A stretch of DNA of 64,000 bases from Leptolyngbya sp. (GTDB taxonomy: Bacteria; Cyanobacteriota; Cyanobacteriia; Leptolyngbyales; Leptolyngbyaceae). Within the stretch, counting starts at the first letter, position 1. Each line of letters starts with the position of its first letter. The notes under the pieces are model-generated. The model ran no database searches and was not told the DNA's origin. It saw nothing but the letters and a program-made list of their open reading frames with translations. The translations under genes and the position numbers were made by a program. Location: assembly GCA_003249025.1 (NCBI GenBank), contig QBMH01000003.1, positions 1 through 64,000 on the forward strand. Direction: 5' to 3'. Shown one piece after another: positions 59,344 to 64,000 of this stretch.

Positions 59344-60084
59344 TTACCTAAGAACCTCACAAGCTTTGTTGTAGTAATGCTGGCGATCATCCAAGCCGTT
59401 GTAACCACCATTGACGCACTTGGTCACCTGCTCGACGGTTGCCCCTTCATCACAGTATGAATTCATATCATTGTTGTGCCACCAAAAACCAGCACTGGTA
59501 AAGGGGTAGGTTGTCGCAACATAGTCGCAGCCTTCCATCACCCGTGGATCGGCAAGCAATTTAGACAACGCTTCATAATTGGATCGCCCTGTCAACTGGA
59601 TTACTCCAGCACCTTTAAACCGAGGACCATCGCCGGGGTTGATATTACCCAAATCATCCCGTCCTTCTAGGTAGCTGCCATCATCTAGCTCTCGTAGCCA
59701 CTGTAGCCCACCTGATTCATGAGCGATTTGGCTTAAAAAGTGCCGCATTCTAGCAGGTGTATTGATTTGGTATCGAATTAAGCACTGGTTCAAATCTTTT
59801 AACAGATCGCTAGAAATGTCGCTGCCAAAAATAGCATCTGCTTGCTGCTTGGAGATTGTGTATAGCCCATCCCAATGCTGATTGAAGATATAAAAGGTGC
59901 CGCTGTTTGCAGCTAAAGTAATTTTGCTATGTCCACCATCAGCAGGTTCAATCTCATCTATGCCATAGCATTTGCCAATAGGAACAGCAATCATTTCAGT
60001 GGGTTGCAGTTCCGAAGAGCATACAGGCTTTTTCTTTAGCTTGGTTTCAAGTGTGGCAGTGATAGTTTGCATCCGCTTCTCCAT
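59344..60084 (-). CDS. GH19 chitinase/endolysin-like protein with N-terminal module, no signal peptide
   Basis: MRHFLSQIAHESGGLQWLRELDDGSYLEGRDDLGNINPGDGPRFKGAGVIQLTGRSNYEALSK...CVNGGYNGLDDRQHYYNKA. Confidence 0.88.
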   Translation of the reverse strand: MEKRMQTITATLETKLKKKPVCSSELQPTEMIAVPIGKCYGIDEIEPADGGHSKITLAANSGTFYIFNQHWDGLYTISKQQADAIFGSDISSDLLKDLNQCLIRYQINTPARMRHFLSQIAHESGGLQWLRELDDGSYLEGRDDLGNINPGDGPRFKGAGVIQLTGRSNYEALSKLLADPRVMEGCDYVATTYPFTSAGFWWHNNDMNSYCDEGATVEQVTKCVNGGYNGLDDRQHYYNKACEVLR

Positions 60085-60871: not shown

Positions 60872-61576
60872 ATGCAAACACAAGCATTGCTCAACTATGA
60901 GCCTATTGTTGGACACTTAAATGGTTCAAAAAATAAAAAAATTAAATTAAGCTCAACCGCTGTCAACTCTTGGCTGAAACAGATTTCTTTAGGTAACTAT
61001 TCTTGCTTTTGGAATTTATGGGTACAGTATCAAGCTGATTTATACAAACATTGCTTGCGCTGGATGGAAAACAATTCTGCTGATGCTGAGGATGTTTTGA
61101 GTCAGGCAAAGCTCCTAGCTTGGACTAAATTGCAGCAATACGCAAACACGATTACCAACCTTAAAGCTTGGTTGACACGCCTCACCCACAACCTTTGTAT
61201 GGATGTTTGGCGAAAACGACGCAAAGAAGTGATTATCCACGACCCTCAAGAGAGCATCAGCCAAGGACAAATTTTTCTTGCCTCACCCATTGGCACTCCA
61301 GAAAGCTGCTTACTCAATCGTGAGTTGCTGTTAATCATTCATCGATCCATTGAAGAACTCCCCGATCGCCTACTTCAACCGTTTCAATTACGTTTTTTTC
61401 AAGATTGCTCCTATGCCGCGATCGCAGATCATCTCTCCATTACTCAAGGCACAGCCCGCAAGCGAATTCAAGAAGCAAGAGAGTTTCTTCGCCACCGAAT
61501 CACCGTCTATTTAGCTGGAGAATCCAAAATTCACAACTCATACTTCCCTGCCGTCTTTTCTACAGAATCAAACTAG
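60872..61576 (+). CDS. ECF-like RNA polymerase sigma factor
   Basis: Region 2: DAEDVLSQAKLLAWTKLQQY...NLKAWLTRLTHNLCMDVWRKRRKE; region 4: RLLQPFQLRFFQDCSYAAIADHLSITQGTARKRIQEAREFL. Confidence 0.85.
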   Translation: MQTQALLNYEPIVGHLNGSKNKKIKLSSTAVNSWLKQISLGNYSCFWNLWVQYQADLYKHCLRWMENNSADAEDVLSQAKLLAWTKLQQYANTITNLKAWLTRLTHNLCMDVWRKRRKEVIIHDPQESISQGQIFLASPIGTPESCLLNRELLLIIHRSIEELPDRLLQPFQLRFFQDCSYAAIADHLSITQGTARKRIQEAREFLRHRITVYLAGESKIHNSYFPAVFSTESN

Positions 61577-61657
61577 TTAGGATTCACGTTAAAAAGCGAG
61601 GGGTTATTTTTGAAGTCGCTGCCCAATTTTGTATTAAACTAGCTGAGATGAAAAGTT

Positions 61658-62776
61658 ATGGTGGAGCATCACGAGTGGGAGTGGTTAAAACGGGATGATC
61701 TTCCACCCGCTAAAAAAGAGACGGAAACTGGCGATCGCCAGATAGACGATCTTAGGCGCTGGGTTGATACAAATGCTTCCAATTCACCAAAAGCAGAGGA
61801 TTATCCGCGAGACCGTTCTCTGGATCGTCATCGCGAACGAATACGACAGCGTATAGAGGCTGCTAAAATTTGGCTACAAAATAATAGACCGCCCAACGAG
61901 AATGCACAGACCTCCTCTCATCGTGTTCAACCCATTTCAGCGGTAACTTCTTCCACGCCTGAACCACCATCAATTTCTGTCCCTGTAAAGCTGACGGTTG
62001 TTGCGACAAATCCGTCCCTTCCCGTTTCCAGTGTTAGTGCGTCGGCTCCTGCTGTCATTGGCTCATTGCCGTCCACTGCTATTGATGAAAAGCAGCCGAG
62101 CGAACAAAAATTAGTTAAGCAATCCTCCCAAAAACCTATGGCACCGAAGAAAGATGATTATCGCGAGGGTTTGAAGCAAGAGTTTACGAACTTGTTTGAA
62201 ACTCTTGACCTTAAAGACACACAAAAGCACTATCTGCGATCGCGTTGGTTAGACCAAGTACTGTGGATGGAAGGACGGGCTGGTAAGGCACGAGATTTCC
62301 ATTACCGCTTGCGACTGACGACCATCATTGGAGGCGTGCTAATTCCAGCCTTAGTGAGCCTCAATTTTATGGATGCTAACAATGAGCGGCTGAAGCAGTT
62401 TTTGGGAGTGTCTACTTTTGCCCTTAGCCAAATTGTGGCGGTGAGTGCAGCAACAGAGCAATTTTTTAACTATGGTGAGCGCTGGCGACACTATCGACGC
62501 GGTGTGGAATCCCTCAAAACTCAAGGCTGGCAGTTTTTTGAGTTGGGTGGTCCTTATCAAACTTATAAAACTCATGACGAAGCTTTTCATACGTTTGCGG
62601 GGCAAGTAGAGTCAATTCTTCAGCAAGACGTTGAAGTGTATGCGACTCAAGTCACTCAGCCAAAGAAAGATACCGAGCCCAAGGAGAACAGCAACAGTGT
62701 CGCAATCACTAACACTCCAATCAGCAGTGAGGCGAGCAATCGCAGAGAACCTGCTGCTATGAAGACACCCTCTTAG
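61658..62776 (+). CDS. DUF4231 (SLATT-like) two-TM membrane protein with disordered N-terminus
   Basis: HYLRSRWLDQVLWMEGRAGKARDFHYRLRLTTIIGGVLIPALVSLNF...GERWRHYRRGVESLKTQGWQFFELGGPY...AFHTFAGQVESIL. Confidence 0.85.
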   Translation: MVEHHEWEWLKRDDLPPAKKETETGDRQIDDLRRWVDTNASNSPKAEDYPRDRSLDRHRERIRQRIEAAKIWLQNNRPPNENAQTSSHRVQPISAVTSSTPEPPSISVPVKLTVVATNPSLPVSSVSASAPAVIGSLPSTAIDEKQPSEQKLVKQSSQKPMAPKKDDYREGLKQEFTNLFETLDLKDTQKHYLRSRWLDQVLWMEGRAGKARDFHYRLRLTTIIGGVLIPALVSLNFMDANNERLKQFLGVSTFALSQIVAVSAATEQFFNYGERWRHYRRGVESLKTQGWQFFELGGPYQTYKTHDEAFHTFAGQVESILQQDVEVYATQVTQPKKDTEPKENSNSVAITNTPISSEASNRREPAAMKTPS

Positions 62777-62787
62777 AGTGAGAAAAA

Positions 62788-62813
62788 GGTCTTACAGCGA
62801 TCGCTGTAAGACC
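62788..62813. repeat. 26-bp perfect palindrome centred on HIP1
   Basis: GGTCTTACAGCGATCGCTGTAAGACC. Confidence 0.9.
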
Positions 62814-62870
62814 CATATACAATTCTGTAACGCGTTCCTAAGTAATCAGCGAGTATCTCTAAAACAATAC

Positions 62871-62982
62871 TCCGGACAGTTTTTGAGACAGAGGCTGAAA
62901 CCCCCATTCTGCCGTTGGCATTTGACCTCCCTGAGGAGGCTAAAACCCGCATTCTACCGTTAGCGATTTAAAATTGTCCGGA
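62871..62982. repeat. Small MITE-like element with TIRs and internal direct repeats
   Basis: TIRs TCCGGACAGTTTT (62871-62883) / AAAATTGTCCGGA (62970-62982), 12/13 match; internal copies AGGCTGAAACCCCCATTCTGCCGTTGGCATTT (62892-62923) and AGGCTAAAACCCGCATTCTACCGTTAGCGATTT (62937-62969). Confidence 0.7.
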
Positions 62983-63098
62983 CTGGTGCTAAAAGATGCA
63001 TTAAAGAACTTCGCTGGAATGATTTAAAGTTTGTCGCTTAATTTATTTAGTTGGTGGTCTAAACCCCCGTCTATATCCCACTTTACTGCTTGATAATC

Positions 63099-64000
63099 AT
63101 GACAATCTCTGAAGATGTATCCGCTTCCCCTGATCACACAGATTTTGCATTAGACTCAACCGCCAACAGTGGGAGCCGGTTTCAAGATGCATTTATTTCC
63201 TATGGACGGGCAGATAGTAAGGCATTTGCAACCAAGCTATATGGTCGATTGGTTGAGCAGGGGTTCAGAATCTGGTTTGACCAAAATGATATTCCCTTAG
63301 GCGTTGACTTTCAAAATCAAATTGATGATGGCTTGGAAAAGTCGGATAATTTCATCTATATCATCGCGCCTCATTCAATCAATTCCATTTATTGTGGCAA
63401 AGAAATTGATTTAGCACTTCAACGAAATAAACGAATTATTCCACTATTACATATTGAGCAAATTACTCAGGAAATTTGGCAGCAGCGAAATCCTACTCGA
63501 AACTTAACTGATTGGGAAGAGTATCAGGCGAAAGGTTTACACTCCAGTTTTCCTAATATGCATCCAGCGATCGGTAAGATCAACTGGGTCTATTTTCGTG
63601 AGGGAATTGATGATTTTGAGAAATCATTTTCTGGACTGTTAGAAATCTTCGATCGCCATCGAAATTATGTTCATCAACATACCTACTTTCTTGCAAAAGC
63701 ATTAGAGTGGGAGCGAAATCAGAAGCAATCCCCCTACCTGCTGGTTAGTGAAGACCGCAAAGCTGCGGAAACCTGGTTGAAAACTCGGTTTACTCAGGAA
63801 CAGCCTCCCTGTTTTCCAACAGATTTGCATTGCCAATTCATCTGCGACAGCATCAAGAACGCCAATAACTTGATGACAGATGTGTTTCTGTCCTACTCCG
63901 AGCGGGAACGCCCTGTGATGGAGAAAGTGGCACTGACACTGATGAGAGAAGGGCTGACGGTCTGGACAAACAAAACTGATATTAAAACAGGCGTTGAGTT
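63099..64000 (+). CDS. Tandem TIR-domain protein, 3'-truncated by the window end
   Basis: Open from ATG 63099 to 64000, absent from the ORF track. TIR 1: RFQDAFISYGRADSKAFATKLYGRLVEQGFRIWFDQNDIPLGVDFQNQIDDGLEKSDNFIYIIAPHSINSIYCGKEIDLALQ. TIR 2: MTDVFLSYSERERPVMEKVALTLMREGLTVWTNKTDIKTGVE. Confidence 0.92.
   Translation, partial: MTISEDVSASPDHTDFALDSTANSGSRFQDAFISYGRADSKAFATKLYGRLVEQGFRIWFDQNDIPLGVDFQNQIDDGLEKSDNFIYIIAPHSINSIYCGKEIDLALQRNKRIIPLLHIEQITQEIWQQRNPTRNLTDWEEYQAKGLHSSFPNMHPAIGKINWVYFREGIDDFEKSFSGLLEIFDRHRNYVHQHTYFLAKALEWERNQKQSPYLLVSEDRKAAETWLKTRFTQEQPPCFPTDLHCQFICDSIKNANNLMTDVFLSYSERERPVMEKVALTLMREGLTVWTNKTDIKTGVE

Follow-up and report, generated by a model that had tools for sequence, protein, structure and literature searches.

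Bacterial TIR defence proteins studied so far mostly sense infection inside the cell; with a TIR array attached to a CHASE2 receptor that spans the membrane, bacteria would have a TIR sensor at the cell surface. Burroughs and Aravind are said to have predicted SLOG/SLATT nucleotide-centric systems in 2015. Thoeris couples a TIR enzyme to an effector arm that is of SLOG type or lies in the membrane: type I combines the TIR protein ThsB with the SIR2-SLOG protein ThsA, and type II combines a TIR protein with a macro-TM ThsA (PMC12948488). SLATT proteins have been predicted to be nucleotide-responsive pores or two-TM effectors answering TIR-type products, and TIR-SLATT gene pairs have been reported in firmicute phages (PMC7159879, PMC9503650). 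Because a SLATT protein answering TIR- or NAD-derived nucleotides is thus already a published idea, the kind of system considered here is not new.

The cyanobacterial locus described below shares with Thoeris the pairing of a TIR enzyme with such an arm, but its TIR array belongs to a family fused to CHASE2 or WD40, its SLOG protein is separate and of the TRPM type (LSDAT), the effector is SLATT or patatin, and there is no SIR2 or macro domain of the ThsA kind among the genes read. As in the SLOG/SLATT systems, which were extended by later work (Kaur 2020, PMC7159879; PMC9503650), a putative effector of the SLATT family, predicted to respond to a nucleotide made by TIR or related domains, lies beside a TIR gene; unlike those systems, this one adds LSDAT as a third partner to a triple-TIR receptor with a transmembrane CHASE2, can have patatin or SLATT-C39-GH19 in the effector's place, and includes a surface TPS/CHAT operon. 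The combination of a signal enzyme with interchangeable membrane-damaging effectors recalls CBASS with patatin (CapV) or 2TM effectors, although here TIR stands in for the CD-NTase and the patatin falls under the CBASS_lipase cut-off (121 vs 200). Cyanobacterial CHAT-CHASE2 and metacaspase-CHASE2 (PMC2853523) loci contain the same CHASE2, DUF928, TPS and CHAT genes, whereas the locus described here has a TIR array as its cytoplasmic input/output part, where those have CHAT or a metacaspase.

The SLATT gene, the triple-TIR receptor and their surroundings

The window, i.e. the whole stretch of 64,000 nucleotides that was analysed, belongs to a contig of 74,770 bp (C333) in a cyanobacterial genome, and the sequence can be read past 64000. 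The features at its end are as follows.

60872..61576, + strand: ECF-type sigma factor, 234 aa (Pfam, NCBIfam); adjacent, judged not to be a module member
61658..62776, + strand: SLATT (DUF4231) protein, 372 aa (Pfam, NCBIfam, structure model)
62787..62814, no strand assigned: hairpin with a 12-bp stem and a GCGATCGC core (HIP1-like), directly 3' of the SLATT stop (z=-5.4)
62863..62990, no strand assigned: mobile-element-like repeat of ~126 bp between the SLATT and TIR genes, its inverted ends reading CCGGAC
63099..64000, + strand: 5' portion of the gene for the TIR-TIR-TIR-CHASE2 receptor, starting at ATG 63099 or TTG 63090 and ending at contig position 66311
63165..63590, + strand: TIR1 domain, with its catalytic Glu in SINSIYCGKE
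63855..64000, + strand: start of TIR2, with its catalytic Glu (YCQKE) just beyond the window

Pfam and NCBIfam matches bear out the three consecutive, co-oriented genes that a first-pass annotation had described here, so that as an observation it is confirmed. The protein that it called "TIR-TIR" does carry TIR domains, and there are three of them: the full product, read past the window, has 1073 aa with three TIR_2 domains (E=9e-78 for the whole protein). That annotation also proposed reading beyond 64000 for C-terminal domains, where CHASE2 was indeed found (PF05226, E=1e-55). It missed the LSDAT (SLOG) partner, the CHASE2 sensor and the operon with DUF928, TPS and CHAT because these are located beyond the window's end or, in the case of LSDAT, on a different contig.

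The C/W-x-x-E motif is present in TIR1 and TIR2, the catalytic position being Glu, Glu and Gln in the three successive domains; across the family, 43/43 first TIRs retain Glu, as do 40/43 of the second and 37/43 of the third ones. TIR1 aligns with the AbTir and SARM1 chains in the PDB. PADLOC models match the TIR domains only, as does the NCBIfam model ThcB4 of type III Thoeris (101 bits vs a cut-off of 220). An AlphaFold2 model built with nine homologues (mean pLDDT 81) shows three TIR modules of alpha/beta fold with a helical segment behind each, then a hydrophobic helix at 662–681 before CHASE2 and C-terminal helices at 992–1012, 1016–1041 and 1048–1069. In the model CHASE2 is thus framed by an upstream TM helix and C-terminal TM helices, as in a CHASE2 transmembrane receptor, and this usual layout would place the TIRs on the cytoplasmic side.

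The SLATT protein lies well above the family cut-offs (PF14015, 105 bits against 24.7, E=3e-30; NF033634 SLATT_1, 101 bits against 41). Its SLATT domain, of a two-TM family, spans residues ~165–335 with two long helices in the model, and residues 1–160 form a low-complexity or helical extension that is absent from 17/17 aligned relatives. One hydrophobic segment is clear (220–238), and the model places long helices at 187–236 and 243–294 (pLDDT 64–95). A structure search of the PDB with this model returned nothing under E=0.1; profile matches to designed PPR proteins in the PDB were set aside as arising from the low-complexity tail.

The hairpin between the SLATT and TIR genes has a T-run on the minus strand only. 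About 18 near-identical copies or fragments of the ~126-bp repeat occur elsewhere in the genome, the copies being about 97–99% identical, and the element has apparently been mobile recently. Because the hairpin and this repeat lie between the two genes, a single transcript is not evident and they may be transcribed separately. An Rfam search of the extended locus gave no matches.

The TIR3-CHASE2 gene is followed on the same strand, after a gap of 42 bp, by the DUF928 gene; 30 bp further on comes the gene of a two-partner-secretion exoprotein and 26 bp beyond that the gene of an exported TPR-CHAT protein. The same DUF928/TPS/CHAT set stands beside TIR-CHASE2 proteins in L117, L119, L120, L223 and L224 and beside single-TIR versions in L269 and L270. 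Other CHASE2 genes of this genome have CHAT in place of TIR and are preceded by a different sigma factor and DUF1822 (L133), and CHASE2-DUF928 pairs are common in cyanobacteria, joined to other inputs such as CHAT. Since the set recurs elsewhere and CHAT takes the place of TIR in the sister genes, TIR3-CHASE2 is one of the input/output forms of a surface module that is widespread in cyanobacteria. A single protein in L270 (1755–6353) unites a TPS secretion domain with a CHAT protease domain, a fusion which suggests that CHAT acts outside the cell in CHASE2-DUF928 operons. The end of C333 carries a YifB/ComM-like gene of only 250 aa (L009, 13481–14771) and then the start of a recombinase-like reading frame; possibly an island is inserted in comM.

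Recurrence of SLATT, TIR and LSDAT among cyanobacteria

We searched a phylum sample of 388 cyanobacterial genomes with the SLATT, TIR protein and LSDAT families, taking triple-TIR matches at E<=1e-100 and applying Fisher tests to the 387 genomes that remain when this one is left out. The genomes are related rather than independent, so the following p-values overstate the significance: this SLATT subfamily occurs in 10/11 triple-TIR genomes against 25/387 overall (p=1.9e-12), LSDAT in 10/11 against 29/387 (p=1.1e-11) and LSDAT in 24/25 SLATT genomes (p=3e-32), while among 58 relatives LSDAT is found in 15/15 triple-TIR genomes against 28/58 overall (p=1.3e-6).

Physical linkage nevertheless supports the association, in that SLATT lies <=13 kb away in 7/14 other triple-TIR loci of the phylum sample, and the partners are often separated by only a few genes. 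SLATT is nearby in only 3/14 TIR3-CHASE2 loci; where loci were found via SLATT or LSDAT, a TIR gene lies within 6 kb in only 6/47 (controls, 0/20). A scan of contigs with one protein gave 15 loci, nearly all of them TIR3-WD40. The layouts read were these.

LSDAT-SLATT-(SLATT-C39-GH19)-TIR3WD40: L225, with L095 similar
LSDAT-SLATT-TIR3WD40: L207, L260
SLATT-TIR3WD40, twice in tandem: L228
SLATT/LSDAT/TIR3WD40: L227
LSDAT-patatin-TIR3WD40: L210, L213, L217, L219, L229

The closest homologues of the receptor (58–59% identity) are in L223 and L224, where SLATT, LSDAT, TPS, ShlB, CHAT, TIR3-CHASE2 and DUF928 lie within about 18 kb, and the window locus looks like a cluster of this type with LSDAT elsewhere and the order changed. 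The TIR tree groups the protein with L114, L223 and L224 (support 84/83) and shows that WD40 and CHASE2 ends have been exchanged for one another at least twice. SLATT, double SLATT, SLATT-C39-GH19 and a CBASS-like patatin, whose best-scoring defence models are CBASS phospholipases, interchange as effectors, as WD40 and CHASE2 do as sensors. A constant sensor-enzyme pair with swappable membrane-attacking proteins would be typical of nucleotide-signalling defence. SLATT and TIR recur as a pair, in most cases accompanied by LSDAT, and the sigma factor is no part of it; for the arrangement we coin the name TIR-LSDAT-membrane-effector module, and the window locus has SLATT immediately upstream of the TIR3 gene and an LSDAT gene that is present in the genome, though unlinked.

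Three further observations concern these families. SLATT is fused to a C39 peptidase and/or a GH19 chitinase/lysozyme in L095, L225 and L228 (also L233), which joins a membrane effector to cell-wall enzymes. A GH19-type endolysin-like gene at 59344–60084 (minus strand), which has no Pfam match at E 0.1, is 42–43% identical to the GH19 domain of the SLATT-C39-GH19 fusions in L095 and L225; because its relatives occur in 38/59 genomes and the closest ones lie away from SLATT loci, we discarded it as a split-off piece of such a fusion and treat its position as a coincidence. LSDAT also has a second recurring setting with neither TIR nor SLATT, between a ~530-aa and a ~440-aa protein (L244, L246, L249).

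A possible route from NAD+ to the membrane

The explanation that we prefer, and to which we give an even chance, is Thoeris-like signalling by an NAD-derived molecule with a membrane TIR receptor, a TRPM2-like sensor and SLATT as membrane effector. The domains, the catalytic residue, the predicted topology, linkage and co-occurrence, and the swapping of effectors and sensors were computed, and from these we infer that the TIRs are NADases, what the ligand is, that LSDAT is its receptor and SLATT a pore, and that the system serves defence. The TIR protein, as the signal-maker, would hold three TIRs in the cytoplasm; a single TM helix would connect them to a CHASE2 sensor outside the cytoplasm, and three more TM helices would form the C-terminus. 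A cue from outside would change CHASE2, and the exported TPS/CHAT/DUF928 proteins encoded in its operon may take part in handling that cue; the change in CHASE2 would lead the TIR array to assemble. TIR1 and TIR2 could then cleave NAD+ to an ADP-ribose-type product, which the TRPM2-like LSDAT (SLOG), encoded on another contig here, would sense. SLATT, once switched, would permeabilise or depolarise the membrane, with growth stop or cell death as the outcome.

The proposed order from NAD+ through the TIR product and LSDAT to SLATT is supported by the catalytic Glu, by the TRPM2-like LSDAT and by the published prediction of a SLATT pore. The single LSDAT of this genome matches the MHR1/2 region of TRPM2, with a best E=1.3e-8 on the TRPM2 chanzyme, and in zebrafish TRPM2 this region has been reported to bind ADP-ribose and open the channel (PMC13143021). 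The recurrence of TIR, TRPM-type SLOG and membrane effector would show concretely how cleavage of NAD+ can end in damage to the membrane, and the defined three-gene set makes a ten-year-old prediction, of SLATT as a nucleotide-gated effector, directly testable. More tentatively, the three proteins may form a receptor-to-channel pathway in which a transmembrane TIR protein senses the outside and produces ADP-ribose as a signal, and SLATT opens once a TRPM2-like SLOG protein has read it; if true, this would be a prokaryotic counterpart of Toll-receptor logic (sensing outside, TIR inside) and likewise of the ADP-ribose-gated TRPM2 channel, in which either CHASE2 or WD40 could serve as sensor and SLATT, patatin or SLATT-lysozyme as effector.

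Several results count against this NAD-derived signalling: LSDAT is on contig C46, unlinked to the locus, SLATT is near few TIR3-CHASE2 genes, the hairpin and the mobile element lie between the SLATT and TIR genes, the catalytic Glu has been lost from TIR3, and few loci found via SLATT or LSDAT have a TIR gene close by. A rival reading is that the two genes are neighbours by chance, with TIR3-CHASE2 belonging only to the CHASE2-DUF928-TPS-CHAT module and SLATT (with or without the sigma factor) doing another job with the LSDAT of C46. The frequency of CHASE2-DUF928 pairs fused to other inputs such as CHAT, the TIR3-CHASE2 loci that mostly have no SLATT, the interrupted gap and the many SLATT-LSDAT pairs with no TIR gene nearby all agree with it. 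We nevertheless regard a chance origin as somewhat doubtful, as SLATT and LSDAT share the cluster in the nearest homologues, L223 and L224, SLATT adjoins TIR3-WD40 in several other lineages, and co-occurrence between genomes is strong.

The TIR array might instead be a scaffold which, like adaptor TIRs, signals by protein contact and recruits SLATT or CHAT directly, with no nucleotide involved. Three consecutive TIRs suit filament assembly and TIR3 has Gln for Glu, but the near-complete retention of the catalytic Glu in TIR1 and TIR2 across the family, and a partner LSDAT that belongs to the ADP-ribose-binding SLOG family, make this improbable.

The adjacent sigma factor gene

The sigma factor is well defined (Sigma70_r2 E=5.8e-10, Sigma70_r4_2 E=1.5e-11; TIGR02937, 78.7 bits vs a cut-off of 42.9), and homologues at E<=1e-18 occur in 29/388 genomes. 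SLATT, TIR or LSDAT lies near the homologue in 0/20 loci read, and the same search found no homologue in L223 or L224, the nearest TIR3-CHASE2 clusters, so this gene probably lies beside the SLATT gene by accident. Neither conserved linkage to a target (0/20 near SLATT/TIR) nor an anti-sigma gene ties it to a regulated operon here. A three-gene operon in which it controls SLATT and TIR as one signalling module, despite the shared strand, the 81-bp spacing to SLATT and a weak genome-level co-occurrence with TIR3 (p=0.005), is very improbable, and on the strength of the 20 loci we rejected the factor as regulator of the module. The interpretation in the first-pass annotation is thus partly supported: the link between SLATT and TIR holds, in that they recur as neighbours and TIR1 and TIR2 keep their catalytic Glu, whereas conservation of the trio and control of its expression by the sigma factor are not supported by those same loci.

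What does accompany the sigma homologues is a conserved TPR gene of ~530 aa, which the 3' end of the sigma gene overlaps by up to 60 bases in 13/20 loci (L187, L189, L190, L192, L193, L196, L199, L200, L202, L203, L205 and others). It is possible that the ECF-like sigma factor and the overlapping TPR protein are a sigma/regulator pair.
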